A model generated the notes under the pieces. The model saw only the letters and a program-made list of their open reading frames with translations. It was not told where the DNA came from and searched no databases. 64,000 nucleotides of DNA from Mermis nigrescens. Taxonomy: Eukaryota; Nematoda; Enoplea; Mermithida; Mermithidae. This document shows, one piece after another, positions 6,301-55,055 of the stretch. Position 1 is the first letter of the stretch, and each line of letters starts with the position of its first letter. The stretch is from the NCBI GenBank assembly GCA_036768485.1, contig JAVLUZ010000154.1:41044206-41108205 (forward strand), read 5' to 3'. The position numbers and the translations under genes are program-made.

Positions 6301-7477
6301 GTAATTCATTATATTCTGTAATCTATAACAGTTATTCTTAATTTGTGATTTCTGATATAAATTTAGAATTTTTGATATTTAATTTACAATATTTCATAAC
6401 ATAGATTATTTATAATATTTAATTTTCAATATTTTATAATATAGATAATTTATACTTTCGATTTAAATTTTTGAAAATATGCTCACGTTCTGATTCAAGC
6501 ATGGTGCTGGAAAGCTAAATTAATGAACACTCACTAAGACTTTTAGGGAGACCTTCGCATCATCTGTTAAAACATTCGCGTTTTTGTGTGTACATACCTA
6601 CTTTGCATAAAAGTCGAGCAAATTTCTTTTAGCCGAAAACTTTTCTACTTTTCGATTATTTAATTTGCTGCTAGTATTAGCAAAGGGATTTGTAATCTTT
6701 CGAAAGTAATAATCTCCTACAATATAATGAATTTGACAATAAGAAAAGGAAAAAAGTTTTAAGTTGTAAAATTTTATGCTTATATACTCGTACTTATAAG
6801 CAGAATATTTTCGTGGGTTCTAGACCCTCAAAATAGATAAATAGGAAATTTTCCGAGGAAAATGTGGAAAAAGGAAGGCTTAAAATGGGTGCAAGTTAAA
6901 AATGTTCTCCAAAAGTTCTCTGAATTGACCAGTAACTGTGGATTAACATAGTTTTGACGCTACTGTTACACTCATACCAGTTTTTGACGTCATTTCGACC
7001 CCAAAACTCTACCGGATCTCCATAGAACGGCTGACCCCTCAGATTGGCTATGCTGTGCGTCTCAGCATATGATTTCTGAATAAAGGACCCCAGAAACTAT
7101 TTGCATTAGTTTCATTTTTGGGAAAGATACGTGCGACAATTCCGTTTCGAAATAGAGCAATCAATTTTCTACTAAAAGCAAGATTTTAATGAAAATGTAC
7201 GTAATGAGTACAATTTACCTATAACGTCGTAACCAATTCAATATAAAATTTTGATCCTTTCTGACACATGGGAAACAATGCGCATTTTCCAAAAGTTTCT
7301 TTCTTGTTCTTTTCATTAAGAATGTTGTGTTCACAAATGCATTAACAAAAATCTCAAGCGATAACTTTGTAAAGCTTTGGACTGCTCTATAATCGATTAC
7401 AGCGAAGCATATTTTGCTCTTCTGAACCAAAAGAAACAAGAAGTTGCCGTATTTTTAGTAATCTTGTATATTTGCAG
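6301..7477 (+). other. Intron 1 of the ACE-like gene (predicted)
   Basis: It starts GTAATT and ends tgtatatttgCAG, a good acceptor. It is 1,177 bp, AT-rich and phase 0. The stretch 6.88-7.08 kb resembles 20.5-20.75 kb, so it contains part of a dispersed repeat. No gene was seen on the other strand. Confidence 0.55.
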
Positions 7478-7638
7478 CACGATCCAGAAGAGATAAAAAA
7501 ATTCGTAGAATCCGTTGACGAAACGAAGCGTGTGTTGTATCAGCAGATGGTCGAAGCATTGTGGAATTATAAAACAAATATGACGGATCAGGCTCTGAGA
7601 CTGAGTACCTCAGCCAGTGCTAGATATCATACGTTCAG
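7478..7638 (+). CDS. ACE/ANCE-like peptidyl-dipeptidase (M2 family), exon 2
   Basis: The exon is 161 bp (53 codons plus 2 nt) between the acceptor TTTGCAG|CAC and the donor TTCAG|GTACCT. The peptide starts HDPEEIKKFVESVDETKRV and continues with EALWNYKTNMTDQA. It matches the N-terminal helices of ACE-family catalytic domains, where the consensus is a helix followed by A-x-W-x-Y-x-(S/T)-N-(I/M)-T. The NxT sequon (NMT) is also a conserved glycosylation position in ACE. The exon ends in phase 2. Joining AG to the T that opens exon 3 keeps the frame and gives a continuous family-like sequence. The active-site residues lie much further downstream and are not in this exon. Confidence 0.8.
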
Positions 7639-9208
7639 GTACCTTCATAAAAAAGTTTTAAAAAACATGAAAACCTCCTTAATAAGTAATAAAAATCCTT
7701 TGGAGACCGATTTTATGCTTACATACATAAAGGTTCAAAGTTTGATAACTGAAAGTTTGCGGAAGTTGTCCGTTTACTTATTATTTATTATTATTATATT
7801 AGTTCCATTATTTATTCACTCGCAGAAGTTTCAACAGCTTGTTTGATTACTGTGTGAATACAAAGATGTGAATCCCACAAATGTAACAGCTGAAAGGTTT
7901 GAATGGTGTAAGTCGGTTATTTTCAATAGAAAGCAGGCTATAAATCTTCGCTTAAAAACATAAAATCATCTAAAAAGGCAACATGTTAGTTTTTGCCCAA
8001 GCTTTGGGATGGGTGGAATGAAAAATCTCGATTTTTAGTAGAAACAACGAGCTTTTTACTGAGTCTCTTCATGCTGTCTTAATATTATGCGCTACTGGCA
8101 TTCTGCCTATAGTTCCTTAGTAAATATTTCGAGATAGGGCGTACCTACCTAATCTGCTTGCTAGAAAATTCGCATCTTATTCGAGATAATTTATAAAAAA
8201 GCAAATACAAAAGATCTAGCGATATCAAAACAATAATGAATAAGTAAGGATAAACATAATTTAAGGACTCACAGTATGAAAAGTATGTTCATCGATATAG
8301 ATTATGACCAAAAGGAAAATAGTTTAAGTGAGTCGAAGCCAAACTACCTGAGCGATCGTACTTAAGTCTTGCGTGTCCTTTACCTTCGGGTTGCATTTTG
8401 AGGAATGCCATATTTCAGACTCTCAATTCTAAAATTTTATCATACTTGCAATATGTTGATGAGCTCGTATGAACTCCAGTTTGAAAATTTTATTAGGCTC
8501 AAGAACGGGCTCAAACCCAAACCTTATACACGAGTACATACTCTCATAATATACTTGGGTACCTCCAGAACTTAGTAGCACCCAACGGCTACCTGTAAGT
8601 TGTGCTTCTTTAAATTGTAGGTAATATGAAACTTATTGTTCATGTGTTTTTAATACTTTTTACACTCAAATTGTAGCCGGTAGTGTGTAAAGTTACTGAA
8701 CAACATCGTAACATTACTCGATTTTATTTCGCTCATGAACAACTTAGTGCGCACACGCTCTATAAAAAGTTAAATGTTAACAAGTTTAGAGCATAAAATT
8801 TTCAAGACTAGGTTATTTTATTTTTGAAAACTTGAATTAGTTTTCGAAGCATAATAACGTCGAAACGCAAAAATATGTGGATGAAACACGTTTTAGTCAT
8901 TGGTTTTCTTTCAACTTCTCCGTTTATTTTAAATTTGTTTTCAACGTCAAGGAACATACATTGCACTACTTAAGAGCATTTTTCTTACACTCAATCTTGA
9001 ACTCTTTGCGAAGGTGTTAATTTCACACCAAAAACATTTTCCTCCTGAAGCATTGCACAATGCTAATTATTTATAATGCTCTCCGTAAAATCGAAGTTAG
9101 GAACCGGACTCTACATTTTGTTTAGAGTAAGCTTTTGTTGACCTACAGAGAGACGTAGAGCGATTTTTATGCTTTTCATTAGCTTGCAAACAACTAAGCA
9201 TAAATACT

Positions 9209-22489: not shown

Positions 22490-24480
22490 AGGGGAGGGGC
22501 ACGCCGCCTATCATAAAAGTGGTCCAATGAGAACAATAGCGAGCGCGGAATTAAGTACGTCGAGTCGGCCAACTATTTGACCACAGTGGCGCACGCATTG
22601 TTTACTAACGGTACGTTACAGTTACCGTTACAGTAACCTTGCCTACTACCTATCGAAATTTAAAATGCTAACTTTCAAGGACTGAATTTAATTGAGATAG
22701 TATTAAAATATTTGAACTCCTCGTGAAATTCTAAGCCAGAATAAATATAATTTGGTACAGGTTTCTTCAAGTTCTGAGCTCGCCTATTTCGACATCAAAA
22801 ATTAATGAGCTGAGAGATCATAGTTTAGAAACAAATGAAAGTAATTAATGCCTGTTGTACTGTTTAATGCCTGGTCACTTGACCCACACACAATAAGTGT
22901 ATGAGATGACGTTCAAAGTGCAAAGGTCACACAAACGCTTTATATTTGGTGTACCAATGTCTGTTACTTGACCCAAAATAAATAAATGGGGTTGCCTTTG
23001 AAGTGCAAAGGTCAAACAAACGCTGTATAATTAGCGTACTTGATGGAAATGTTCAGTTTATAAATACTTTCTGTGCGATGGATGATTTATTACGGAGAAT
23101 ATCGAATTTTCGATGGTTTTTGATGACGACGACCATACATCAGTTTTTATTTGACTACCGGCTGATAAACTCTGTTAAAATGTGTGAATTTTGTCAAAAA
23201 CCATGCCGAATCGAGAGCAAGGGTCGCCGAAATTCCGAAGCAACTTGGCGTGGTTCTGATTTGCAATGTCGGAAACGCTATTCGGTTCGATTCGGTTCCT
23301 TTTTCGCCTAATTTGGCGCTCCTCTTTGTAAAATTATTTAAGTTCTTGTTGACTGGAGTCTAAAATATACTACAAATTCGATCGTACGGGAAACGGGCCT
23401 GTACAAAAATACCATGTCATTAAAATTCTTCATGAAACTCGAGAATTATTTGGTGTGTGGCTGGAAGAAGACAGTGAATAAATCGGCTGCCGGGACATGT
23501 GGTCGAAATCGACGAATCGGCTTTTGGGAAGCGGAAATGCAATCGAGGACGTTTGAGAAAGACCATGTGGGTTGTTGGTGGAATTGATCGTCAAACCAAG
23601 CACAATTTTTCGTCCGTGAAGGCCAACCAAAACGCCCAAACACTTGGGCAAGTGATTATCAATATAGTTGAGCCCGGATCATCTATTGAAACGGATTTCT
23701 GTAAGGGTTACAATTTAAGAGGACTTAATTTCACCCATGATAAGATTAATCATTCTGTGAATTTCGTGGACCAGGCTAACCATAAGATTCATACTCAAAA
23801 TATTGAAGCTCAATGAACAAAAGCCAAACGCACGCGATTTACGCAGACGAGTTGACTGGATGAATACGAATACATATGAAAGTTATTTAGTGGAATGGGT
23901 CTGGTGCATTCGATTTCGCTCAGAGAATCAACTTTTAGAAGATTCCTGCCAAGCGGTTTTGTACATATATGTGCAATATTTGATGATTTATGTAATAAGG
24001 TGTGTTTTATTGACTAGGTTTTTCACGACCATTATGTTTATGTAGACAGTTCTTTAATCAGTTGACATTAAAACACTTTTTAGAATTCATGTTAAAATCA
24101 GCTTAAAGAATATAAGGTTTTAAAATTTATGAGAAAAATTAATTAGAAAATTAGAACTAGATTCCATTGTTTACAGATTATCTAGTTTCTTGTTGAAAAT
24201 TTCGGTATAAATATATTTAAAACAAATATATAAAGTTACATATATTCTAATTCGGAATTGCACGAGGAGTCCAAATAACACAAAATTATGTAAATCAAAT
24301 TAAACTGTTGGAAATTAACATTTTAAATTTCAATCGCTAGTAGGCAAGGTTACTGTAATGTACCGTTGGTCAACAATGCGTTACAGAGGTCAAATAGTTG
24401 GCCGACTCGAAGTATTTAATTCCGAGCTCGCTATTGTTCTCATTGGACCACTTTTATGATAGGCGGCGTGCCCATCCCCC
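22490..24480 (+). mobile_element. Merlin DNA transposon with ~150 bp inverted repeats (decayed)
   Basis: The left end (GGGGAGGGGCACGCCGCC at about 22,491) continues through ATCATAAAAGTGGTCCAATG to tagtaggcaaggttact-type sequence near 22,650. The right end carries the same sequence inverted from about 24,340 to 24,480, finishing GGCGGCGTGCCCATCCCCC. Weaker inverted similarity continues about 40 bp outward on both sides (ttgatttt / aaatcaac), so the true termini may lie slightly outside and I could not read a duplication. The interior encodes a broken ISXO2-like transposase. It lies within the ACE intron. Confidence 0.85.
23003..24045 (+). pseudogene. Merlin transposase pseudogene (ISXO2-like DDE family)
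   Basis: Three frames together cover a Merlin transposase. Frame one (23,003-23,311) contains a zinc-ribbon-like N-terminus (CEFCQKPC, then LQCRKRYSVRFGSFF), the usual start of ISXO2-like transposases. After a broken stretch, frame two (23,499-23,816) carries the catalytic core: EIDESAFGKRKCNRGR with the first Asp, IETDFCKGY with the second, and INHSVNFVD...IHTQNIE as the C-terminal family signature. A third frame (23,803-24,045) gives the C-terminal RDLRRRVDWM...YLVEWVWCIRF. At least two frameshifts and internal stops make it inactive. The family cuts and pastes DNA and usually makes 8-9 bp duplications. Confidence 0.88.
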
Positions 24481-24713: not shown

Positions 24714-25009
24714 CACACATAGGCGTGGGAAGAAAGAGTTTGGGGGTATGCTCCCGTCCTAGAAAGCCGATAACCCCCAGACATCAAAATACCCATAGAA
24801 TTCAATTTTTTGAAATTTTTTTAATATTTTTTCACAATTTTTTGATGCTAATTAATATTTCTTGATGCCAATGGATAATTCTCGATGCCAATGGATGGTT
24901 ATTGATGAAACGTTGAAAAATGGTGGTTTTTTAGCCATACCACCATTTTTAAGACCATTTTTTGACCTTTGAAAAGCAACCCCCAGAATTTTGGTGCTGC
25001 CCACCTATG
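24714..25009 (-). mobile_element. Family A hAT MITE with perfect TSD GTCATATC, next to ACE exon 3
   Basis: A 296 bp reverse copy, flanked by GTCATATC at 24706-24713 and 25010-25017. It ends 45 bp upstream of exon 3. The frame running into exon 3 from 24,969 belongs to this MITE and the intron, not to the protein. Confidence 0.88.
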
Positions 25010-25054
25010 GTCATATCCCGTTGCGTTCAATTACTTTAATTTATTTATGGCTAG

Positions 25055-25620
25055 TAAACAAGCGGCAGCAAACGCAAGCTGGTTTGATGTCCGGTTGTCG
25101 GCAAATAACTCAAAGATTTTGATGCGTCGATTTGCTAAAATTAAAAACATTGGATTCAAACTAGATAAGAATGATACCGAGAAGCTGCATCGATTAATTA
25201 GCGACATGGGTCGCATTTACAGCGAAGCCACCATTTGCGCTATTCGAACAAATTTTTCGTTGCCCAAAAATCCACTGGAAGATTGCGATACGCGATGGAG
25301 CCTCGAACCGCAAGTTTATAATTTTATGGCCAAAAATCGGGATTTCGACCATCTGGCGCACGTGTTTAATGCCTGGCACCGGGCCACTGGTGATCCCGTC
25401 AAATTGCTTTTTCGGCAGTATGTTACGTTGAGTAACAAAGGCGCCAGGCAAGGCGGCTTCAATGATACGGGAGAGTTGTGGAGGTCGGTGTACGAAGAAG
25501 ACGATTTTGAGAAAGAGCTTGACAATCTATGGCATCAGGTCGTGTTATAGCTTAACACGCACATACGCGATATTGGAGGAGGTTATGCGGGAGGAGGGTC
25601 TCATCGCAAGCAGAAAGTTT
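25055..25620 (+). CDS. ACE/ANCE-like peptidyl-dipeptidase (M2 family), exon 3, with apparent frameshift
   Basis: After the acceptor ATGGCTAG|T, the frame (phase 2, continuous with exon 2) encodes KQAAANASWFDVRL..., then LHRLISDMGRIYSEATICAI, an acidic linker, LEPQVYNFMAKNRDFDHLAH and WRSVYEEDDFEKELDNLW. These correspond in order to the helices of the ACE domain: the L-x-x-M-x-x-x-Y/F...C segment, L-x-P-x-(I/L), the D-x-x-x-L...W segment, and the E-x-W-x-x-x-Y-E motif. At about 25,527-25,540 the frame hits V-V-L-stop, while the next frame carries IRSCYSLTRTYAILEEVMREEG, which fits the following R-P-L-Y...Y-V-R segment. This implies a 1-2 nt indel, or else a splice donor at CAG|GTCGTG. The 3' end is uncertain. 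The zinc site (HExxH) was not found in the window. Confidence 0.75.
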
Positions 25621-29831: not shown

Positions 29832-30767
29832 ATGGATAAATTGTTGACAAAATTATATCATGACCCTCAAACTGGGTATACGGAGGCAAATCAACTTTTT
29901 GCTAGAGTAAAAAAGTAACGTCCAGCTACAAAATTTGAAAAGGTAAAAGCATGCTGGAAAAGCAACCCACATACACACTTTATAAACCTGCAAGGAAACA
30001 TTATTCGCGTAACAAGATAATACTTAGTGGGGTTGATGAGCAGTGGCAAGCAGATTTGGTAGATCTACAATCGTTGAGCAAATTCAATGATGGATACAAA
30101 TTTCTGCTGAACTGTATTGACATTTTCTCAAAGTATGCATGGTCAGTTCCGCTTAAATCAAAAACAGGTAAAGAAACTATCGCATCTTTTCAGAAAATTT
30201 TCATATCGTCAAGCCGTAAACCCTATAAAATGCAAACAGATCAGGGAACTGAGTTTACAAACAAAGTATTCCAGCAATTTTTGAAATCTTAACTTATTGA
30301 CTTTTTCACGACCAAAAGCGAAATGAAAGCTAGTATTTTTGAGCACTTTAATCATACGCTTAAGGAACGCATGTGGCAATATTTCACTAAGAAGAATACA
30401 TTCAAATATATTGACATTTTGCCCAATTTGCATGAAAGTTATAATAATTCTTTTCATAGGACCATTGGTACATCCCCCGCTAACTTTACCTGTAAAAACG
30501 AAAGAGGAAATTTAAACAGCATTCAGGATTGATAAATCAAACGTTCTTTTTAAATTTGATATTGGTGATAAAGTTCATATAAGTAAAGTGAAACGCACAT
30601 TCAAAAAAGGGTTCTGGCCTAATTGGACCGAAGAATATTTCATTGTTAAAGAGAGGTTTGCTCACACACCCCCTGTTTATACTCTCGAAGATCAAAAGGT
30701 GGAAAAACAAGAGGGTGTTTTCTATGAAACCGAGCTGGCATTAAGCTGGAATAATTCCAAAATGTAG
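29832..30767 (+). pseudogene. Polinton/Maverick retroviral-like integrase (broken)
   Basis: ATG 29832 begins MDKLLTKLYHDPQTGY, followed by a TAA at 29916-29918 and a frameshift near 29,945. The next frame carries the core domain: QWQADLVDLQSLSKFNDGYK (first Asp), then CIDIFSKYAWSVPLKSKTG, KMQTDQGTEFTN (second Asp), a TAA at 30290-30292, and SIFEHFNHTLKERMWQYF (catalytic Glu region). After another frameshift near 30,530 comes a C-terminal chromo-like/SH3-like part (FDIGDKVHISKVKRTFKKGF, NWTEEYFIV, YTLEDQ, FYETEL) ending TAG 30765-30767. The DDE core plus this C-terminus is the standard Polinton integrase plan, about 310 residues. Two nonsense and at least two frameshift mutations make it dead. 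Confidence 0.85.
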
Positions 30768-40767: not shown

Positions 40768-40818
40768 ATTGTCAGTCAGCAGAATTAAATAAGGCTGGAC
40801 GTCAAAATCATTTGCAGT

Positions 40819-41871
40819 TGTAAATGTAGAGCCGCCTATGTCTACGAAATATCGGCACAGGGCGGATACATTTGCCTTCGAGATTTACCTAGGTACGTAG
40901 GTACTTAAGTCTACGCTTAGTGCTGGCCCCGATCGCGCGGCTCTGGATGGCTTTCGATCTTTGGACCCTTAGAGACCTTACGGCTTCGATCCCCTCAGCC
41001 CTAATATTGCTGGCTGCTTCTTGTCGGGTGATCTCAGCAGCTACGCCCTAAGACCTAAGGCTACCTACCTAGTCTCGGAATTGCCGCTGGAGGTCAGTTG
41101 ACCTATCTCAAGCTCAAGTTGTTTATTTAACTTATTTTCAATCAGTGCCTTGATCGAAATGTTTTTGGTTCCTAATTTGTGTAGCACGCTGAACAATGAA
41201 AACAACAACAACGAGCTCTGTGCTGATCAATCATCCTTAAGGATTTAATAATATTTTTGATCAATTTTTGGCTTGAGAAATAAATTATGATTTCCAAGTA
41301 AAATAAAATATCATACGGAATTTACCTATCAGTCCACTAGAATGGGTGGAAGTCCTCGACGTGGGAATGTGCCGACCTAACCCTCGGTATAGCCAAAAAC
41401 CACTGGGTAGGTTTTCTATATTTTATTTCGACGAAGAATTCACGGCCTGTAGCCGGACAACAAGCAAAAAGAAAAACGTAAACGTACGGAATATGTCAAC
41501 GTACAACTGGCAAACGAAAAACAAAAACGCCAGACTCCACTACAACGTTAAGTACACTGGCCTCAAGGACCATTACAGTAAAATAAAGAAAGATCAATTT
41601 AACGTAATACTGAATCACTTTTATCTCAGCTCGAAAGTTCTCGATTACACAAGCGGTATGCATGAAACAATTACTATTATCATACACTTAACTCTATGAT
41701 ACCGGACAAGTATCTAAATGTTTTTTATTATTGAAAATTTGGGGAAATAATGGGAAGACCGAAGGCATAGCCCACAGTGCACTATCATAGATAGTTACTA
41801 GTATTGGCTATGTGATGGCTATCGCGAACTGCTAACACAAGTTCGCCTAACGTGTAACTCTCGCAGTTACA
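40819..41871 (-). repeat. 3' LTR of the gypsy element
   Basis: 1,053 bp; on the minus strand it starts TGTAACTGCG and ends CATTTACA. Its beginning can fold: TGTAACT GCGAG AGTTACA, and just inside it GCGAACT...AAGTTCGC. It differs from the other LTR mainly by single substitutions, several of them CG-to-CA. Confidence 0.95.
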
Positions 41872-42674: not shown

Positions 42675-43338
42675 TTAGCGATCCTGATAGTTGGCCTTCG
42701 AGCCATGCGATTTTCCGCGACGTCGTTGATGTTGAAAATATTCCTGATCCAATTCGGGTTCGCGACGCGTATTCGAACGCTCGCGATACTGATATGACGA
42801 TTGCCTACGCCCGTACATGTGTTGGCGACAGCGTCGATGTGGATCGACAGGTCGATCGTCGTCCTCAAAATTGTCGTCGTCCTCATAGTCATCCGCGTAA
42901 CGACGCGGTATAGGTGGCGTCGGAGTTGGCTGGTTGACTTTGTTCCAACGGTGAGCGATACGACTGGTCCCATTGTTGACGTTGATGGGATTGTGACCGG
43001 CCCCGATGCGTTCCGCGGTTTGACTGTGGCGGACGACAATATTTGTAAGGCTGCTGCCGTCGCGAGCACAACAGATGACCAGCATCGGCCTGTGAATACG
43101 CCTCGGAACACTCACGCGATTCCGTAAAATGCTGCTGTTGCCGCGGTTGGGTCTGCGGTCGTGTGTATTGCTGTGTATGCGGTTTTATTTGTGTTTGCTG
43201 CTGTACTTGTGATTGTGAACGATGATGCGTTTGAGCATAGCGTTGCCGGGATGATTGCGGTTCTTGCCGCCTCGATCCCTTTTGGCCTAAACGCGCTTTC
43301 AATTTAGCTGCAACTTCAGCTTGAACAAGTCTTCTGAC
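42675..43338 (-). CDS. Arg/Gln/Ser-rich basic tail ORF downstream of the exonuclease ORF (frameshifted)
   Basis: Directly after the TGA that ends the exonuclease ORF, the same frame stays open for about 150 codons (VRRLVQAEVAAK, then KARLGQKGSRRQEPQ... to 42,889). It is strongly basic and rich in Q, R, S and H, with few hydrophobic residues. An overlapping frame continues to 42,675 with an acidic patch (DDYEDDDNFEDDD) and again Arg/Gln-rich sequence (CRQHMYGRRQSSYQYRERSN). The simplest reading is one low-complexity C-terminal region of the large ORF, now split by a nonsense codon (43341-43339) and a frameshift near 42.9-43.0 kb. Composition suggests RNA or nucleic-acid binding, like the Gag tail, but there is no defined domain. 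It could instead be a separate small protein. Confidence 0.5.
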
Positions 43339-46300
43339 TCATTGCTTTTCCAAATTTTTTAACCAACGCAAAGCGTGCTCGGACTTAGTGTCATAAAATC
43401 GATTCAATTTGGCTTTATGTTTGTCTTCTGACATATGACAAATGTCTGAAGATTCAGCAAGAGAACCGGCGGCGCGTAATCTCGTTGCACGCCTTGGCAT
43501 TTCCATTGCCAAGTTGTCATGATCGCGTTTCTTGATCGTCATGCGTGTTCTATGCATTTCAATTTGTGCTTCCAAAGAAAGATCGACTTCTGGCATATCA
43601 AGGCTCGCTGCGGATCCGCTCGGGTCCTGCGAGGATGCCTGCCGCCTTTCTCTTCGAATTATCTCTAATTCGCCTTGAATGCGATGTTTGAGGTAAAATA
43701 CAGATTTTTGTTGACCTCGGAAACAATTGAATTGAACAGGAACTTCGAGTGGCAGGTCGGTTGCTAACCGAATTTGCCAAATCATGTTATGTAAGACATG
43801 AGGACTTTTGATTCGTGCCGTTAAGTCCGGGAATTCCGGGAAAGCTTCACTTGGCGAAGGTGTATAACATTCACCAAGGAACGCTACGCGTAACATACGA
43901 CGCAGCTGCTCCACCATGCGCCAGCCTATTCCGGCATTGCCGTAGGCGTACGCAAAGAAGTGGAACTTCCTATCCAAGAATTCCAAAAGCGCTGTAGCGC
44001 GCATGATGTCAATTGAAGAGAAAATTGTCATGTGTCGATACTCCGAATCATATAATGATTGAAATTCTCGGAAAGTATCGAAGATATCGACCATCTGACA
44101 CGTTGATATTAAAATGGGCGCTAAGTGATCTGGCGCTGGAGACATCCTGTGCGGATATAACTCCGGGCGAACCTGATGTGCAACGCCATCAATCACCTCA
44201 GTCGGCGCGTCAAGGTGCGGATGCACCACCAAATACTGTAGTGGAACCTCGTATAACATCATTCCGGTTGTAATAAAGAACCGTATGCGCACAAAGTATT
44301 GATCTGGGTAAAATAATTGGTTAAACACGCTCAATTCACTAATAAATCGAGGTGCGGGCGGACAATTGGCATCAGCCAAAGGCTGTGCAATTGAAGACCA
44401 CACTAATGGACGCGAGGGAGAGTCAGTCAAAGTCGCGTACTGCAAATGTATTGCGTAAACTCGGTCGAAGTACACTTGGGCAGCTTCAACCAGCTGATTG
44501 TACAGACGTGTTCCTTTGACCTCACCCAAATAAGAATGTAACTTGTGCAATACGACTGGCGCGATAGTGCACGGTGGTTCACGCGTCATATTTTCCATCA
44601 TGGTGAAAAAGTGCTGTACGTAGCGCGAGCGATTTTGCACTCTAGCGCTTTCGTTCGCGGACATACGTTCGCAAATGGCTTGAACGTGCGGAGGTATTGC
44701 GACTTCCATATTTGATGATTGACTTTGAGTAACCTGTGGTTGAATAATCGCCACAGTACTCGACACACCCGTCATGGCCATAGGAGCCATAAAATGAGCA
44801 TCCGGTGCCGACACGCCATGTGGGGTGGAATGAGTCGCGACTTGCGTGTACAAAGCTACTTGCGGTACGTCATGTGCGGATAATGTGCGTTGTGGTAGCG
44901 GCGGAAAACCAATAATCTCCGTCATAATCACGTCGGGCTCAGAATCACGCTCTACCCAACCCGGCTGCAAAGTCGGTAAAGGTGCGAGCAAACTGATGCC
45001 CAAGGGCGCTTGTTGGTCCGCCGCAAGCAATTGCGAGACAGTCGGTTGCGAAATGGTAACAGCCCCTTTTCTGGCCAATACCACGCGTGTTGAGCGTGGT
45101 GGCAACAAGTTAGCTTGTCTTTCCGCCTCGGTGTCAGATAACACCATCACTAAGCGTTTAGGAGATAAATTGTCATCCTCAGTGGAGATCGATGGTTCTA
45201 CATTGATTATAGGCGAATCATAAGGAATATTGGTTTGCGAAGAAAACACAGAGGCTGGTGTACTCGAACTGGTTGGTTTAGATTTTGGTTCGGTATCAGG
45301 TGCATGAGCTGGGCCCAAAACTGAGTCGGCAACGGCCTGCAAATTCTGAACTTGTAGGTCAGGATTGTCAAAAACATTAGCGTGAGCCAACGCTTCCGTT
45401 ACTGAGGCAACGGTGGTGGCTGCAGCTATGGCTGCTGGCAGTTGTGGAACTGGGCCATAAAAGACTTCAACTCTAATTAGCTCTTCGCCATTTGAATCAA
45501 CTTTGACTTCAGCAGCTGTGCTGGTCGACTGTCCTTGTGGTGGTTTACTAGTCGACAACGGTATACGCACTCTGGCTTTTGGGCCAGTAGCCTTAATGTG
45601 CAACTCATCGCCTATAAACGAAACCGACATAGGCTTTCTATCGTCAGTAATGCAATTATTTTGCGTGGTCCCTTCTATCAATATAAAAACATCAATACTT
45701 ATGAGGGCGTCCATTGCTAAATAATGCTGCATGTCCTGAGTTAACGGTAAGCTCCACGCCTGTCCGAAATTATCAGGCGCATTAGGGTCAATATACATGT
45801 CAAAAAGGAATTCCGCCAGGCGCTTTAACGTGTGCAAATGCGCTGTGATACAAAAACGACGAGTAAACTGTCTCGCCAGTGGCTGAATATCAATAAAATT
45901 TGCGATGAATGGATCCTTCCAGTGCAGTTTATTGCGAATCTCTGCATCCGGAATCGCCAAAATTTCCTCAAAAGTTGGCCCGTACACGTGAAAATACGCA
46001 AGTCGATCTTGCGTAGGGTCATAGCAAACCATGTATACATTTGGTAAGCGCGTTTTGAGCAACTGGTGAAGCCCGAACGGAGGTTGCGGGAACTTTGCCA
46101 GGTCCCAACAGAACACATGGCCGTTCGCGCTCGCAACTTGGACGTAGCGTACGAATGGGCCATGGAGGTCCTGGTAAGTGGGACATAATTGCTGAAAACG
46201 CAAGTCCCAGGTCTTATAATGCCTGCCTTTTCTGTCATTAACAAATTCAGAGTCGTAGCCTAAGAATAGTGTGCCATTTGTCAAATTCGTTGGATGAATC

Positions 46301-46692
46301 AACGCCAAAATGGCGCCAAACGACTTCTGGTCGTTGGAGATTATAACAGTGGGCAGAACTCTGTTCTTTGGTACACGAGGGGTTACCAAAGGAGATCTAC
46401 CAAGTCTGCTCTCCCACCAGAGTTGTTGGTCGTTAATACGCTTAGTGTGATTTTTGACTTTATGTGCTGCTTTATGTTTAATCCATTTTGCGGTGAGTGA
46501 CTCTAAACCGCCAACACGACTATCGTCGTTTTGCGGCAGCGGGTCTGGTATAACCAAGCCCCGCTCCAACGCCATACTGGTCAAAGCCGAACAAAACTCA
46601 TCTAGGGACGCGGGATCACGCCCCTCGTATTTGCATCAGCGACCAGCTGCCTCCAGCAATGCCTCTTTGCTTGGGGTACCCTGTGCAGCCAT
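43339..46692 (-). CDS. Large accessory ORF with DEDDy 3'-5' exonuclease domain (RNase D/WRN/EXD-like)
   Basis: This sits where gypsy elements sometimes carry env, but shows no signal peptide or membrane span. Counting from the codon at 46584, residues ~100-305 hold every DEDDy motif: Exo I LGYDSEF (D111, E113), Exo II VCYDPTQDRLAYF (D193), then NFIDIQPLARQF, a helix LHTLKRLAEFL, and Exo III WSLPLTQDMQHYLAMDAL (Y288, D292; Y-x3-D). This is the RNase D/WRN/EXD pattern, so a metal-dependent 3'-5' nuclease acting on RNA or DNA is predicted. Residues ~330-640 are Pro/Ser/Thr-rich and low-complexity. ~640-960 look folded and helical but are unknown to me; ~990-1080 are charged. The best start is ATG 46692 (CCATGG context), inside the integrase end, with one in-frame TGA at 46638-46636. 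Otherwise it is ATG 46575. GC content is visibly higher than in gag-pol. Confidence 0.85.
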
Positions 46693-47999
46693 GGGTCTGC
46701 AAAAGGAAAAACATTAGATAATGGTACGGCATGTGCTGTTTTAGAGCCATTTAATAAACGTATAGGCGCGCAGTCCTTAGCTTTTTGTTCCCTGCCCGGT
46801 AAATCCTCAAAACTTATGACTACTGCCGGGGCAAGAGGGCGATGTGGTAATTTTACCAACACAAAATTGCCAGGGACGTACGCGTGTTTTTCCACAATTA
46901 AGTCAGAATAAGGTAGTTTAGGCTCAGGCAGAAGTCTATTTTGGTGAACGAGATGAGTGATGAGAGGATTATAGACATATGCAATTTTTGCAGTTTCAGG
47001 CGTAGGTAAGTCAATAATTTGGTATGGACCCACACGCTTGGGTGATAGTTTACCGATTTCGGGTTGAATGACTGAAGTATTATTAAGATAGACTATATCC
47101 GAAAGAGAAAAATTTGTTTGCGTTACGGACTTGTCATATTGAGATTTTTGCTGCTTATGCGCTTGCGTTAAATTTTGAGATGCGATTTCATGCAGATCTT
47201 GCAAAGTCAGCTTTAAATCAATGACATATTTTTCCGCAACAGATGGTAAATTCGGATTTATCACGAAGTCATTTATAAGTAAAGTGTCAAGTGGAAATGC
47301 TGGTTCGCGACCATAAAGCATTTCAAAAGGAGATATATTAGTCGATGATTGCGGAGTCGCGCGGTATGCAAATAATGCAAAAGGTAGAAATTGCTCCCAA
47401 TCATACTGGGAACGCGCACTCAGCTTAGACAAACCATCAATCAAGGTTCGATTATAACGTTCCACCAACCCATCACACTGGGGGTGATATGGGGTTGTAA
47501 ATATTTTTTGAACGTTTAATGGTTTGCAAACTTCCGAAATAAGGGTAGATGTAAAGTTTGACCCCTGATCTGTCAAAAATTTCTTGGGAACTCCATAACG
47601 TGGTATAATTTCTCGTAATAATAAATTTGCGATAGTTGTTGCTTTTATGTCAGAAACAGCAAAAGCTTCCACGTATTTTGTAAAATAATCCATAAAAACT
47701 ACAATTTGGTCATTTCCAGAGGGGGATCGCAGCATATGCAAACAATCGCACGCAATGAGTTCAAAGGGCGCGGATACTTTGATTGGTTGCAATGGAACGG
47801 ATGTGGAATTTAATGCAACCTTACGTTGTAAGCACACATCACAATTCCGACACCACGCGATCACATCATTTTCCATGCGCGGCCACCAATAATGCAGTTG
47901 TATGGCGGGCAAAATTTTGCGCGATGAAAAATGAGCTCCGAAAATAGAGTCATGAAATTCCGTTAGTATGAAGCGACGCAAAGATTTGGGTATGACCAT
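46602..47999 (-). CDS. Integrase of the gypsy element
   Basis: The frame begins MVIPKSLRRFIL, continuing the polyprotein after RNase H. The N-terminal zinc-binding part is H-x6-H (FHDSIFGAH) with HYWWPRMENDV and CRNCDVC. The core is DD35E: D85 (IACDCLHML), D144 (LTDQGSNFT) and E180 (DGLVERYNR), with exactly 35 residues between the last two. The C-terminal region (QTNFSLSDIVYLNNTSV..., LSPKRVGPYQIIDLP) is the usual GPY/F-type domain. It is one frame back (-1) relative to RT-RNase H, overlapping it by 37 nt. Since other gypsy elements make RT and IN in one frame, a 1 nt indel near 47.96-48.0 kb is likelier than programmed shifting. Its 3' end overlaps the start of the exonuclease ORF. Confidence 0.95.
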   Translation of the reverse strand: MVIPKSLRRFILTEFHDSIFGAHFSSRKILPAIQLHYWWPRMENDVIAWCRNCDVCLQRKVALNSTSVPLQPIKVSAPFELIACDCLHMLRSPSGNDQIVVFMDYFTKYVEAFAVSDIKATTIANLLLREIIPRYGVPKKFLTDQGSNFTSTLISEVCKPLNVQKIFTTPYHPQCDGLVERYNRTLIDGLSKLSARSQYDWEQFLPFALFAYRATPQSSTNISPFEMLYGREPAFPLDTLLINDFVINPNLPSVAEKYVIDLKLTLQDLHEIASQNLTQAHKQQKSQYDKSVTQTNFSLSDIVYLNNTSVIQPEIGKLSPKRVGPYQIIDLPTPETAKIAYVYNPLITHLVHQNRLLPEPKLPYSDLIVEKHAYVPGNFVLVKLPHRPLAPAVVISFEDLPGREQKAKDCAPIRLLNGSKTAHAVPLSNVFPFADPWLHRVPQAKRHCWRQLVADANTRGVIPRP

Positions 48000-50203
48000 T
48001 TGATGAAGACAGTTGGTGAACGCTTAGGTTGGAAATGACGAAAAAGTACATCTTTTACGAGAAGAAATTCGTCACAATATTTTTTCGTTGTTAAGTCATT
48101 CAATGCGTTGCGAATTTTATGCAATTCGTCATCTGCACGTTGCTCAGCGAGTAAACGCGCAGGCGTTAGCATTTCAGCTTTTTCGGCATCGGTGAGTAAC
48201 AAGCGTTTGCAAAATGTAGGTGGTTTAGAATTGGTAGGATCGGTTTGCGCAGTACAATTGTTATTTTGCGCATTTGGATGATTAATTGGTGCACAAGGCG
48301 CATTATCGCGCGATCGGTCAGGTGAAACCGATTCATCATCTGACTCAGAATCTTCCGATTCTAAATTTGTGATGTTAACGACGTTTTTGCGCTTGACTTT
48401 ATATTTTCGTTCTGCGTGATCATATTTAGGATGTCGTGAAAGAAGATCAGCTGCGCAATTATATGCACCAGGAACGTATACAATATCATATTCATATTCC
48501 TGTAATTTGAGACCCCAACAGCGTAATCGACTCAATGGGTCTTTAACATTTACTAGCCAGGTTAGCGCTTGATGATCAGTTTCGACAATAAATTTTTTAC
48601 CGTAAAGATAATGTCGATAATGCTTGATGGCCCACACTACCGCTAATGCTTCTTTTTCCAAAGTAGCATAGTTACATTTGGCAGAATTTAGCACGCGACT
48701 AGCGTAGCTAAGAATAGAACGATTTTTGGATGGTAAATGTTTTTGCATTAAAATAGCACCTAACGCATAGTTACTCGCGTCAGTTGTTAAAATAAATTGG
48801 TGCTCATCATCAAATTTTGGTAGTTGCAAAATAGGTGGGGACGTAAATGCTTTCTTCAGAAGCTCAAAGGCGGTTTGGTGTTCAGCCTTCCAGCAAAATT
48901 CGACATCTTTACGAAGAAGATGGAATAGCGGTTTAGCAATTTTAGCGAGATCTTTAACGAATTTCTTAAACCATTGGACTAAGCCAAGGAATTTCTGCAA
49001 GGATTTTACGGTTTTTGGTACGGGAAACGAGATTAAATCCGCGACTTTGGACATGTCAGGAGCGATGCCCATTGCACTTATGTTGTGGCCAAGGAATTTT
49101 ACCTCTGCATGCGCAAGATGGCATTTATCAGGCTTTACGCGTATGTTTGCCTTTTTAAGAGCAATAAAGACATTCTCAAGATCTTTTAAATGTTCTTTGA
49201 AAGTGCGTGAAAAAATAATTATGTCATCGATATAAACGAGACAAGATTTCCAATTTAGACCTGCGAGCACAAGCTCCATTAGTCTTTGAAAATCTGCGGG
49301 CGCATTCTTTAAACCAAAAGGTAAAACTTCAAATTTGTAATGACCAACAGGACATATAAATGCTGTTTTTTCGCGAGATTTATTATCGAGTGGAATTTGC
49401 CAGTATCCAGATTTTAGATCTAGTAGGCTAAAATATGCAGCACTGCCTAAGGTGTCAAAATAATCGTCTAATTGTGGAAGAGGATAAACTTGCGTTTTAG
49501 TAACGTCATTTAACCGTCGATAATCGACGACTGGCCTAAGGGAACCGTCCTTTTTTCCAATGAGAAATAATGGACTTGCCCAAGGGTAAGTTGTAGGTCG
49601 AATAATTTTATCCGCAAGCATTTCATATATAATTTTCTGCATAGATTCTCTTCTAGAATGTTCAACACGATAAGTTTTTCCAACGACTGGTGGATTATCC
49701 CCTGTATCAATATGATGTTTCATCAAGGGGGTACGTCCGAGAGGTTCGTTTTTTAATGCAAAAATTGAGTCATACTTTAAGCGTAATTCACAAATTTGTT
49801 GCTGTTGTCTAGAATCAACGGCGGAGCCGTTTAAAGCTTTATTTATTGATGCAAAAAGTTCTGGTGTCCTATCATCAAAAGATGAAACGTGTGACACGAC
49901 TTCGGCATCAGAGGTTAAAGAAACTATTATTTCACCAGAGTCAATGCGAATTGGCGCTTTAGAGATGTTACAAACGCGAACAGGTATTAAAGGTTGTGAA
50001 GCATCGACTATAGACGGAGCAACAAAAAGTGACGTTTTTTCCATAAAATCGGGATTTGGTTCGAATAATGCGAAATCAAAATTGCAAGAACCGTGACTTA
50101 TATAGCCAGGTGTAATTAATTCATGCCTAGGTTGTATTATAACAGGCTCAGGCAACAAAACATGCACACACACAACACCAGAGGTAGTTGCGTTGGGTTT
50201 CAC
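47963..50203 (-). CDS. Reverse transcriptase - RNase H of the gypsy element
   Basis: 746 codons, opening without an ATG (GTG at 50203), so it is expressed from the upstream frame, probably by -1 frameshifting in the short overlap with the protease frame. RT motifs: KKDGSLRPVVDYRRLND, LLDLKSGYWQI (catalytic D262), VLPFGLKNAPADFQRLM, and CLVYIDDIIIFS (D326, D327). RNase H: TTDASNYALGAIL (D475), LEKEALAVVWAIKHYRHYL (E518) and VETDHQALTWL (D543). All catalytic residues are present. The last ~12 codons (KWSYPNLCVASY) are out of frame with the integrase that should follow, marking the frameshift. Confidence 0.95.
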   Translation of the reverse strand: MKPNATTSGVVCVHVLLPEPVIIQPRHELITPGYISHGSCNFDFALFEPNPDFMEKTSLFVAPSIVDASQPLIPVRVCNISKAPIRIDSGEIIVSLTSDAEVVSHVSSFDDRTPELFASINKALNGSAVDSRQQQQICELRLKYDSIFALKNEPLGRTPLMKHHIDTGDNPPVVGKTYRVEHSRRESMQKIIYEMLADKIIRPTTYPWASPLFLIGKKDGSLRPVVDYRRLNDVTKTQVYPLPQLDDYFDTLGSAAYFSLLDLKSGYWQIPLDNKSREKTAFICPVGHYKFEVLPFGLKNAPADFQRLMELVLAGLNWKSCLVYIDDIIIFSRTFKEHLKDLENVFIALKKANIRVKPDKCHLAHAEVKFLGHNISAMGIAPDMSKVADLISFPVPKTVKSLQKFLGLVQWFKKFVKDLAKIAKPLFHLLRKDVEFCWKAEHQTAFELLKKAFTSPPILQLPKFDDEHQFILTTDASNYALGAILMQKHLPSKNRSILSYASRVLNSAKCNYATLEKEALAVVWAIKHYRHYLYGKKFIVETDHQALTWLVNVKDPLSRLRCWGLKLQEYEYDIVYVPGAYNCAADLLSRHPKYDHAERKYKVKRKNVVNITNLESEDSESDDESVSPDRSRDNAPCAPINHPNAQNNNCTAQTDPTNSKPPTFCKRLLLTDAEKAEMLTPARLLAEQRADDELHKIRNALNDLTTKKYCDEFLLVKDVLFRHFQPKRSPTVFIKWSYPNLCVASY

Positions 50204-51024
50204 GCGAAATATTTCTCATGAGATGATAGTAAATTAATCTTTATGCCATTTATAAAAGCACAGCGCTCAATAGGATTAACCCACATGAGTGCGGATTTGC
50301 AAAAATCATATCCTAAGAGCATGTCTTCCGGCAAATGATCAATTATAGCTACGGAAGTAGAAATAGATTGTTCCGCAATGGTTAAGGTCATATTTACTTT
50401 ATAGCGAACGACTGCAGTGATTTCGCCTACACCATGTACGACTTGTGAAACTTGCTTAGGTGGTAAATTAAAACCAAGACGCAAGAATGCAGACGTGGTC
50501 ATCATGGTGACCTGTGAACCTGTATCTATGAGAGCAGGTACATCAATGCCATGAACTTTAACTAGGATGGTGGGTAAATTAGTCCCAGCATGGCTTACAA
50601 TAGGAATATTAGGATCTGACGTCTTAGATGGGGGTAGATTAATCTTTTCGTAAGTTGCGAGACGACGTTGTAAATGTTCGTACTCTTCGAGAAATTCTTG
50701 CGACGCGAATAAATTAGGACACGCGCTAGATTCTGGCCCTTTCGCAGTAACCGTGTTTACATCATGAGGAGATGTAAGGGTTGGCTGCGGTGGGGGCACA
50801 TTCATGGCGGGTTGGTTATCAGCCGTGTATGTGACATATGGGCGATTAAAATTATTTTCGTTGCGATAGTTCGAGTTATAATATGTCACACGCTGTTCAT
50901 TTGGGAACTGCACAAATGGTGTATTTTGACGCGATTGAGTATTATAACGATTATCGTAACGCGAATTTTGATAATTAGCACGCAAATTTTGGTAATAATC
51001 ATTACGATTTTGCCGAAGATTTGA
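50200..51024 (-). CDS. Aspartic protease region (Gag frame)
   Basis: In frame with gag and separated from it only by a TGA (51027-51025). The first part is an Asn/Tyr/Arg-rich linker (NYQNSRYDNRYNTQSRQN). The protease fold follows, with the active site VPALIDTGSQVTMM (D-T-G), a flexible VVHGVGEI segment and a second hydrophobic strand (MLLGYDFCKSALMWV), as in retropepsins. It is one domain, so it acts as a dimer to cut Gag and Pol. It ends TGA at 50200, overlapping the RT frame by a few bases. I see no canonical slippery heptamer there. No start codon is needed if it is made as Gag-Pro. Confidence 0.88.
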   Translation of the reverse strand, partial: SNLRQNRNDYYQNLRANYQNSRYDNRYNTQSRQNTPFVQFPNEQRVTYYNSNYRNENNFNRPYVTYTADNQPAMNVPPPQPTLTSPHDVNTVTAKGPESSACPNLFASQEFLEEYEHLQRRLATYEKINLPPSKTSDPNIPIVSHAGTNLPTILVKVHGIDVPALIDTGSQVTMMTTSAFLRLGFNLPPKQVSQVVHGVGEITAVVRYKVNMTLTIAEQSISTSVAIIDHLPEDMLLGYDFCKSALMWVNPIERCAFINGIKINLLSSHEKYFA

Positions 51025-53415
51025 TCATGATTGCTTTGATTCAAAGCGATTATCATTATTCGCATAGTTAAATGAACGATGTTGACTAGGGTTACGATAT
51101 TGTGATTGAGATCGATGTCTATTTTGCGAATTTGAACGCGATGGTGAACGATTTTGACGCGAAAAAGAACGCAATTGGCTGCAATTGCGAGCCATAGAAT
51201 TATTACTTCGATCAGTTTGGGTATTCTGATTAGTATTATTAGACGTTTCTTGCCTCTGCTGCGTGAAACATTCCTCATAAATGTGACCTATGCGCTTGCA
51301 AAAGGTGCAATATTTACGAGAAGAACTTTCTGGTTTCTCAGCACGCGATGAGCGATGAAACGTTTTATGACGTGAACGATTTGAATCATTTTGGTTAGAT
51401 GCGTGAGGAGTATCTTTAGGTACTGCGCTGCCTACGGGAGCAGCTGTTACCAATACATAAGGCATTACTGCCTTTTTATCCTCAAATTCTTTATTAACAA
51501 ATTCAGCGCTTAGCGTATTGTCCAAAAATTCAGCTAATGATGCTCTAGGTTTTTTGTGATATGCCTCTTTTGAAATGTGTGGTAATAAGCCTTGTTTTAG
51601 TTGATGTCGCATTAAATTATTGAAATGTGGCGAGTCAACTACAAGGTAAGGATCAGATTTAATTAACTCTTCGCGAAGCGAGAGATAATAAGCTTTAACC
51701 GATTCATTAGGCTGCTGTTTGTGTGACAAAAAACGATTAAAGAGCGCACTGGTGTCCATTGGACAAAATTCGGTTATTAGCGCTTGTTTCGTTTTTGAAT
51801 ACGATTGTTGTATATCAGCAGGTAACGAACGGTATAAACGCAAAACATAAGGGTCAAGAAATCCAGTAGCAAATTTAAAACGATCAGCTTTGTCAATATC
51901 ATAGGTATTGGCAAGCGATTCAAATTCTGCAAAATATGCTTTTATGTCCGATTTATCGCCATCAAAAAATTTTTTATTAGCAATTGCAAATTGCATTTGT
52001 GTCAAAAATGGTCCGCGATTCAAGGAATCAGCAAGACGCGAGTCACCACGAGAGCTTTCAGATGAAGAACCTGAACTATGCCGATGACGTCATCTGCGCG
52101 ATCGACTTTTGCAACGCGAGTGACGGCTGCGCGGGCGATCATAACTATTAGATGAACTTTCGTCAGAAAATTTGACATGTCTTCTCCTACTAGATGATTC
52201 AGAGAGAGGCGCAGATTCGTTTTGCAAATTTGCAGATTCGTTGTTAATGCCAGATAAGTTTATTTTGACAGGTTGCGTTTCGATATTAGAAGAATGCAAA
52301 ATAGGGTTATTAGGTGGTATTTCCACATTTATCGGATTAGGTACATAATTATTTGGTAAAATTTCGCCTTGAGGTGGAAAATATTGCAGCGGTGGTGGAT
52401 TCAATTGCTGCTGTGAGTTTGCAGTAGATGGATTAGGTACGAAAGAAGGCGCATTACGATTTAAGGGCAGCTACGGCCGAGATCGCGATGTCTGCAAAAT
52501 TGGTACCGATGGCTGCGAAATCATAGGTAAGTTTTCCGAAAAACCCGAGTTTTGCACTGATTGCAAACCCGTGTTTATAGGATTCTGTGACAAATTAGAT
52601 ATCTCAGGCGCGCAATTCGTACAACTTTGGATTGTATTTTCAGGAACAGTTACCGAAGGTGAGCGTGAATTTGACGCTCTGTTGCCAGTAGACAACAGTG
52701 AAGATGCACGATGCGTACTTTGCGCACGATTTGCACTTTGCGCATTAAATTCAGAAAAATTTGCGCTATCAATTGAGTGGTTAACGCGCTGAGATGAATT
52801 ATTCTCTATGCGATTCAAAACTGGTTGGGGTTTAAGCATAGTGCTTAGCTCCAGACGCAGTTTACGCATTTCATCCGCATTTTCCTTTTTATCTTGCTCA
52901 ATGCGCGTAGAAAGGTTCAAAAATTGCAAATGAATAGCTTGTAACGCTTTCAAAAGAAGATCATTAGTCACATTAGCATTAGCACGCTCTCTGTCGGCAT
53001 TTGTGCTGTGACTATGATTACTTTCTACGTCAGAATCGGGATTTTCGCGCTCCGAACTTGTTTCAGGGTTATTCGCCGTGTTAATGGTACTTGTATTATC
53101 AATCATTGTATGACTTGATGAATTATCGATATTAGGGTCCGATCTAGTTATCGAAGTTTGATTAATGCGAGATTGCACAGTAGTCAATAACAGTTCATCT
53201 TCAGACTGTGTATTACTCGCGGCATTTAGTGACGCGGGTAATTTATCATTATTCACCTTATTGGTTATGTTTTTCATAATTGTGTCATTGCTCGCAGAAT
53301 TACTCACGCTATTAGAGTCAACAGGCGTGGTAGGTAATTGGCGAGTTGAAGTAGGTGGCGTAGAAGGTTTTTTCAATTTAGCGGGCGGTATCCGCAAAAC
53401 CTTTTTTCCTGTCAT
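51025..53415 (-). CDS. Gag of the gypsy element (two internal stops)
   Basis: ATG 53415 opens a frame of about 797 codons, interrupted by TAG (52473-52471) and TGA (52092-52090) and ending at TGA (51027-51025). The N-terminal ~310 residues are Ser/Asn/Thr-rich with a predicted helical stretch near residues 165-200. A basic SR patch (RPRSRHSRCKSRSRR) follows. The capsid-like retrotransposon-gag domain is FLTQMQFAIANKKFFDGDKS, then WxxD-type helices ending around SAEFVNKEFE. The nucleocapsid has one CCHC knuckle, CTFCKRIGHIYEEC (C-x2-C-x4-H-x4-C), and a basic SR/QN-rich tail. The three stops fall in Arg/Ser/Gln-rich stretches where single C-to-T changes (CGA to TGA, CAG to TAG) would explain them. 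Order and motifs are seen; that the stops are decay is inference. Confidence 0.9.
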
Positions 53416-53998
53416 TTTTAGGTGTCAAAAATGTCGGAAAATGTGACCTTAGGTAAAATAAATTTCAGTACGTCTAAATTTTTCCCAAAATAAATAATTC
53501 GAATTTGGCCTTTGTCGATCCGAAAAACAGGTTTTTCCACGTAAATAGTACTTCCTTACGTGAAGTAAGATATACCTGACGTGAAATGATTGAAAGCAGT
53601 TAGGACTAAGCCTAAAGCGCAAGAACGTGTACGTGGTTAGAAAAACAGGTAGGTAAAAACCTAAATGACGGAATTTCGTCATCAGTTGAGAAAAATAATA
53701 AATCGTCGCCTGAGGGCCGATGTTTATAGAAAAATGCGAGCGTGAAAGCTGCCTTCGTTGATGAGAGTTTGACGGAAATAGAAAAATAACGATGGCTTTA
53801 CCACGATACACAAAATCTTTACCACGGACGCTTACTTAAATTGCGCACTGCCACAATCGCAGTCGATACAACAACAAAGGTGAACAAAATGTTACACATT
53901 TTTAGATGGCCAAAATTGTGATTTTTGGATCAAAAAATAATTTTACGATGATTGATCAGCTCGGCTGTAGCTAGCAGCCTAAAGGAGGGAACGTCCAA
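53416..53998 (-). other. Leader (5' UTR) of the gypsy element with candidate primer-binding site
   Basis: On the minus strand the LTR end CATTTACA is followed by T and then TGGACGTTCCCTCC, a TGG-initial site in the right place for tRNA priming; I cannot assign the tRNA. The remaining ~560 bp up to the gag ATG holds no supported gene. Confidence 0.65.
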
Positions 53999-55051
53999 TG
54001 TAAATGTAGAGCCGCCTATGCCTACAAAATATCGGCACAGGGCGGATACATTTGCCTTCGAGATTTACCTAGGTACGTAGGTACTTAAGTCTACGCTTAG
54101 TGCTGGCCCCAATCGCGCGGCTCTGGATGGCTTTCGATCTTTGGACCCTTAGAGGCCTTACGGCTTCGATCCCCTCAGCCCTAATATTGCTGGCTGCTTC
54201 TTGTCGGGTGATCTCAGCAGCTACGCCCTAAGACCTAAGGCTACCTACCTAGTCTCGGAATTGCCGCGGAGGACAGTTGACCTATCTCAAGCTCAAGTTG
54301 TTTATTTAACTTATTTTCAATCAGTGCCTTGATCGAAATGTTTTTGGTTCCTAATTTGTGTAGCACGCTGAACAATGAAAACAACAACAACGAGCTCTGT
54401 GCTGATCAATCATCCTTAAGGATTAAATAATATTTTTGATCAATTTTTGGCTTGAGGAATAAATTATGATTTCCAAATAAAATAAAATATCATCTGGAAT
54501 TTACCTATCAGTCCACTAGAATGGGTGGAAGTCCTCGACGTGGGAATGTGCCGACCTAACCCTCGGTATAGCCAAAAACCACTGGGTAGTTTTTCTATAT
54601 TTTAATTTGACGAAGAATTCACGGCCTGTAGCCGGACAACAAGCAAAAAGAAAAACGTAAACGTACGGAATATGTCAACGTCACGACTGGCAAACGAAAA
54701 ACAAAAACGCCAGACTCCACTACAACGTTAAGTACACTGGCCTCAAGGACCATTACAGTAAAATAAAGAAAGATCAATTTAACGTAATACTGAATCACTT
54801 TTATCTCAGCTCGAAAGTTCTCGATTACACAAGCGGTATGCATGAAACAATTACTATTATCATACACTTAACTCTATGATACCGGACAAGTATCTAAATG
54901 TTTTTTATTATTGAAAATTTGGGGAAATAATGGGAAGACCGAAGGCATAGCCCACAGTGCACTATCATAGATAGCTACTAGTATTGGCTATGTGATGGCT
55001 ATCGCGAACTGCTAACACAAGTTCGCCTAACGTGTAACTCTCGCAGTTACA
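53999..55051 (-). repeat. 5' LTR of the gypsy element
   Basis: 1,053 bp, near-identical to the left LTR. The element's transcript should start here and run leftward. The right edge abuts target duplication CAGT. Confidence 0.95.
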
Positions 55052-55055
55052 CAGT

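Follow-up and report, generated by a model that had tools for sequence, protein, structure and literature searches.

The window analysed here is a stretch of 64,000 nucleotides from the genome of the nematode Mermis nigrescens (GCA_036768485.1, contig JAVLUZ010000154.1, positions 41,044,206 to 41,108,205 of the forward strand). On its minus strand, it carries a Ty3/gypsy long terminal repeat (LTR) retrotransposon of 14,233 bp, counted from LTR end to LTR end. Between the integrase and the 3' LTR of this element lies a long third open reading frame (ORF3), whose N-terminal part is predicted to be a DEDDy 3'-5' exonuclease and is likely kept by selection in many copies of the element.

Architecture of the element and of ORF3

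The features of the element, starting with ORF3, are as follows:

43339..46692, minus strand: ORF3, from ATG to TGA, sharing about 90 nt with the end of the integrase, in a different frame
45673..46419, minus strand: DEDDy 3'-5' exonuclease domain (residues 73-321), catalytic residues D128, E130, D210, Y305 and D309
43666..44715, minus strand: second conserved part of ORF3 (residues 641-990), non-synonymous to synonymous substitution rate ratio (dN/dS) 0.12 to 0.13
42675..43338, minus strand: Arg/Gln-rich basic tail of ORF3, downstream of the TGA, with part of it shifted to a different frame in the window copy
55052..55055: target-site duplication ACTG preceding the 5' LTR
53999..55051, minus strand: 5' LTR, 1,053 bp, exact ends by script, 98.6% identity to the 3' LTR
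51025..53424, minus strand: gag region with in-frame stops in the window copy (Pfam Retrotrans_gag, E 3e-05 within 51028-52089)
50200..51024, minus strand: aspartic protease (Pfam Asp_protease_2, E 3.1e-12)
47963..50215, minus strand: reverse transcriptase (RT) and RNase H (Pfam RVT_1, E 2.2e-35; RT_RNaseH, E 1.3e-34)
46602..48023, minus strand: integrase (Pfam Integrase_H2C2, E 4e-19; rve, E 1.7e-11)
40819..41871, minus strand: 3' LTR, 1,053 bp, exact ends by script
40815..40818: target-site duplication ACTG after the 3' LTR

The LTR pair (15 mismatches in 1,052 aligned columns), the ACTG duplication and the order of the Pfam matches (gag, protease, RT, RNase H, integrase), which is that of Ty3/gypsy elements, support the assignment to this group made in the original prediction, and the mapped LTRs confirm that the ORF is situated inside them, between the integrase and the 3' LTR. 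The accompanying claim that the remainder of this copy is decaying was likewise correct: gag contains stops, RT/RNase H and integrase are found in differing frames, and ORF3 itself is interrupted. A protein-database search with RT/RNase H returned 4,124 matches, of which the 120 listed look like general Ty3/gypsy pol; the best among those listed is one metagenome protein with 58% identity over 56% of the query.

The damage to ORF3 in the window copy consists of a stop near its start, the TGA and a frame change in the tail. From its ATG at 46692, the frame reaches a stop just before 46635, the position at which our residue numbering starts, and then stays open for 1,098 codons up to the TGA at 43341-43339, past which the same frame continues to about 42889. 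In full-length copies the tail is open, and in the one copy measured its last two segments bear net charges of +18 and +11. For the second conserved part, no Pfam match was obtained in the stretches covering residues 641-990. Within the exonuclease domain, the motifs LGYDSEF, VCYDPTQDRLAYF, FIDIQPLAR and WSLPLTQ...YLAMDA are all present in this order, and all five catalytic residues are in place in the window ORF3, just as had been described from the bare sequence. The D of FIDIQPLAR (D249) is outside the catalytic set; it is a D in one of 14 rows from other gypsy families in our alignment A4, which is uncertain at this position.

ORF3 as a predicted exonuclease

To assess the assignment independently of the window family, we relied on a hidden Markov model (HMM) built from 14 exonuclease ORFs of other gypsy families. 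It assigns 72.9 bits to ORF3, compared with 6.8 bits for the best of 2,000 shuffles and at most 3.1 bits for any further window ORF (233 with a length of at least 60 aa). At the sequence level, the likeness of ORF3 to these exonucleases thus exceeds chance. In searches with PF01612, 20 of 25 window-family copies match weakly (best E 0.0069), and four of five other-family ORFs score above the curated cut-off, with the fifth below it (20.8 vs 23.6 bits).

A joint profile found the exonuclease domains of WRN and EXD2 as its best sequence matches, with Egalitarian and Mut-7/Nibbler also matched. The predicted fold of the ORF3 domain is that of an RNase H-like exonuclease; WRN is again the best match, and Egalitarian and Mut-7/Nibbler are matched here as well, so that the structural match to an RNase D-type fold, on which the exonuclease assignment had been made to depend, was found for the predicted domain. 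A first structure prediction from 25 near-identical copies reached a pLDDT (predicted local distance difference test) of 34 and was not used. A PDB search using the 25-row alignment of the window family gave no match, and viral contigs searched with ORF3, pol and alignment A4 yielded no confirmed relative. Across families, the catalytic set is complete in 20 of the 22 rows of A4, including 12 of the 14 from other families; the ORFs at loci L034 and L047, each of which is missing one residue, are either decayed or have turned non-enzymatic.

Copies of the element and selection on ORF3

According to the available text of its description (PMC10989877), the M. nigrescens assembly has 867 scaffolds that total 524,220,005 bases, and 83.98% of it is repeats. 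With the one animal-group marker used, the N-terminal domain of cuticle collagens (PF01484), which is not known outside nematodes, the genome gave at least 45 matches, each above the cut-off, pointing to a nematode host. We searched 523,963,438 bases in 860 contigs and scored 42 of 3,247 first-look candidates, which puts the family at 42 copies at least, these being the best scorers against the query. All 42 matches span the whole ORF3 or all but its first residue, and the 41 copies other than that of the window share 85-89% identity with it. The matched range is free of stops in 33 of the 42, and an open frame of 1,390-1,398 codons is found in 25.

Among 28 loci examined (L001-L028, of which L001 is the window copy), an integrase is located upstream of ORF3 in every case, and an LTR downstream in all 20 that have 3 kb of 3' flank, eight being too short there for this comparison. 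The recurrence of the ORF beyond this one copy, which the original prediction had set against a chance insertion, was thereby established, with an integrase before it and an LTR behind it. In all 27 non-window copies, ORF3 has its ATG in a different frame from the integrase, 90 nt upstream of the final base of the integrase stop codon. A one-off insertion of host sequence by chance, for which we see nothing in favor beyond the unusual combination of genes, is ruled out by the at least 42 copies with their shared arrangement (28/28 examined upstream), and further opposed by the low dN/dS and by the exonuclease ORFs found behind integrases in other families; we assign it practically no probability.

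None of the five catalytic residues is missing from any of 20 copies, namely the window copy and 19 whose frame spans 1,300 codons or more. Based on 19 copies, dN/dS is 0.083 in the exonuclease domain (bootstrap 0.050-0.128), 0.202 in the linker, 0.130 in the second conserved part, and 0.198 in the tail; ORF3 taken from residue 40 onward gives 0.155, and the integrase before the overlap has a value of 0.032 (16 of the same 19 copies, with an open frame). The exonuclease is therefore likely kept by selection in many copies.

Exonuclease ORFs in other gypsy families and their origin

Exonuclease ORFs also occur in other gypsy families of this genome. A gypsy integrase is found within 1 kb upstream of the ORF in all seven other-family loci with upstream DNA (L029-L033; L057, which precedes L045; and L058, which precedes L035). 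Relative to the window element, RT/RNase H identity is 51-56% for L057 and L058 and 40% for L033, integrase identity is 39-43% for these three loci and 33-37% for the L029 group, and exonuclease identity is 21-26%. The other-family ORFs read in this analysis have 489-547 codons, whereas the window-family ORF3 has about 1,390, and profile comparison of the window family with four others detected no common C-terminal part. In trees of ten rows, integrase and exonuclease sequences fall into the same four groups. Because the deep order of the exonuclease tree is unsupported, a single old gain and repeated exchange between gypsy lineages are each compatible with the sequences.

By sequence, the gypsy exonuclease ORFs are closer to each other than to the two cellular genes compared, the host Rrp6-like gene and E. 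coli RNase D: the other-family HMM gives 13.7 bits to RNase D and 4.5 bits to the four exon pieces of the Rrp6-like gene. The latter (L054, G000:C728:216500-221400), an exosome gene with at least four exons, was the genome search's best PF01612 match. A further exonuclease-like sequence, followed by a simple repeat (L055, G000:C147:10700-11400), scores 63.5 bits with the other-family HMM and 11.2 bits with that of the window family; it could represent either an exon of a host gene or a relic. Given this score and the small number of cellular comparators, these sequence comparisons leave the capture of the exonuclease from the host, as originally proposed, undecided.

Further features of the window

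Outside the element, two Peptidase_M2 (angiotensin-converting enzyme) pieces are encoded on the plus strand at 7373-7846 and 24966-25550, corresponding to profile positions 3-74 and 54-205; they could be exons of a single host gene, separated by a very long intron. Between them, at 23478-23816 on the plus strand, lies an ISXO2/IS1595-like transposase domain (PF12762, E 4.1e-08), apparently the remnant of a DNA transposon. An integrase core at 29939-30292, also on the plus strand (PF00665, E 3.2e-12), has a Maverick/Polinton-like appearance by eye. The window contains no Rfam match at gathering score and no tRNA.

Possible functions of ORF3

We read the third gene of this element as a WRN/EXD2-type DEDDy exonuclease that likely works as an enzyme in its own right and trims the 3' ends of RNA, probably of host silencing RNAs or transcripts, and consider this reading as a whole rather probable. 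That the domain is enzymatically active is a prediction in which we place high confidence. The protein would have a start codon of its own within the end of the integrase gene and be translated from a message that is either spliced or initiated downstream. Its Arg/Gln-rich basic tail would hold it on nucleic acid, while the N-terminal domain would trim 3' ends; the substrate would be host small RNAs or transcripts able to silence the element. A separate ORF in the position of env, a faster rate of change than in the integrase, an intact catalytic set and a basic tail fit such a nucleic-acid-held accessory enzyme. As for the substrate taken by itself, host silencing RNAs are our tentative choice, and some other substrate or role appears unlikely.

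The exonuclease could instead aid replication by trimming or proofreading RNA or cDNA of the element itself at the 3' end, beyond the capacity of its reverse transcriptase, which we regard as a serious, if somewhat doubtful, candidate. Enzymes of the WRN, RNase D and Rrp6 class, to which the fold matches point, work on 3' ends, and the dN/dS of the exonuclease is not far above that of the integrase; moreover, processing of retrotransposon RNA 3' ends is a role suggested for rotifer ORF3s in the available text of PMC5408684. Yet ORF3 is a separate downstream ORF outside the pol frame, and its exonuclease changes faster than the integrase. To our knowledge, gypsy elements in general manage without such an exonuclease. 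Alternatively, ORF3 might use an Egalitarian-like DEDD fold to bind and localize the element's RNA without cutting it. Egalitarian is indeed among the sequence and fold matches, and one of its solved complexes contains, by the title of the structure, a localization signal of the I factor, which is a retrotransposon; in addition, the one ORF3 tail for which charge was calculated is basic. A pure binder, however, would not have to retain the five catalytic residues that are kept in the window family and in most other-family rows, and we deem RNA carriage distinctly improbable. Finally, an env-like membrane protein with coincidental exonuclease motifs would suit the position of ORF3, but both the sequence profile and the predicted fold point to an exonuclease, and a simple hydropathy scan of one full-length copy (L005) found a single marginal stretch, which falls within the exonuclease domain; this explanation is highly implausible.

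Several observations weigh against a host-directed exonuclease. Its position and rate of change suit a host-directed accessory protein, but would fit a replication aid too. The activity is predicted from sequence and modeled fold, and the model, obtained from a 22-row alignment, is of moderate confidence only. The window copy is broken; alone, it retrieved no exonuclease from Pfam, NCBIfam or single-sequence PDB searches, it is among the rows without a match in a PF01612 scan of the families together, and two protein-database searches found no relatives of any kind. It may be chiefly the other families that account for the joint profile's hits in the PDB, and the choice of open frames lowers dN/dS somewhat, in ORF3 and integrase alike. 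Furthermore, no fold is assigned to residues 346-1390, the larger part of ORF3, whose main function may therefore be something other than the exonuclease.

In a broader view, DEDDy ORF3s would form a standing accessory class of gypsy elements across animal phyla, as regular as env, and act here as antagonists of small-RNA silencing through 3'-end shortening; we put this forward as speculation that is unlikely to hold in full.

Comparison with known systems

Known additions to the basic gene set of LTR retrotransposons include env, a chromodomain and an extra RNase H. The original prediction was aware of no gypsy gene set with such an exonuclease, but the absence of a known precedent is not supported: DEDDy exonuclease ORF3s were reported in 2017 for the LTR retrotransposons Juno and Vesta of bdelloid rotifers, and likewise for Athena elements (PMC5408684), and they were cited again later (PMC5718144, PMC6431247, PMC6338049). 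The ORF3 described here is therefore of an already known kind. As far as the available text of these reports describes them, Juno and Vesta share with the present case an LTR retrotransposon with a non-env third ORF downstream of pol that encodes an RNase D/WRN-like DEDDy domain, the presence of such ORFs in at least two LTR lineages within one genome, and a closer relationship of these ORFs to each other than to cellular enzymes (here with few cellular comparators). They differ in their host, a rotifer instead of a nematode, and possibly, compared by description only, in the length of about 1,390 codons, the long second conserved part and the basic tail of the ORF3 reported here. In the same text, DEDD is reported as changed to DEED and full-length copies as scarce, whereas we find D-E-D-Y-D and at least 42 copies, and the dN/dS of about 0.08 in the domain is a further difference from the rotifer ORF3s. 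The terminons, which are Athena Penelope-like elements, also combine a retroelement with an accessory DEDDy exonuclease, but, by the available text of PMC6431247, they have a Penelope-like reverse transcriptase, are telomeric, extend up to 40 kb and are not LTR elements.

The closest cellular counterparts are WRN and EXD2, the best sequence matches of the joint profile, with WRN also the best fold match; they are not associated with a retroelement, and identities in the structural alignments shown are 13-21%. Mut-7 and Nibbler share the DEDD exonuclease, with a significant profile match and a fold match, and act in small-RNA pathways, but they too are cellular genes.

Our literature search, which was partial and left subscription papers and preprints outside, found reports of retrotransposon DEDDy ORFs for rotifers only. 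What is apparently new is that such an ORF3 occurs in a nematode, that it is a composite with a second conserved part and a length of about 1,390 codons, that it is found in no fewer than 42 copies, and that dN/dS in the domain is low; given the long composite ORF3 and the host, we see it as a distinct variant rather than a further member, with the rotifer ORFs known to us by description. An exonuclease gene kept in many copies and several families shows that a non-env enzyme can persist in gypsy elements beyond the rotifers. Whether such a gene does anything for the element, a question raised by the rotifer ORF3s, can now be addressed through selection analysis and simple enzymology, and the gene could reveal a transposon response to small-RNA silencing.
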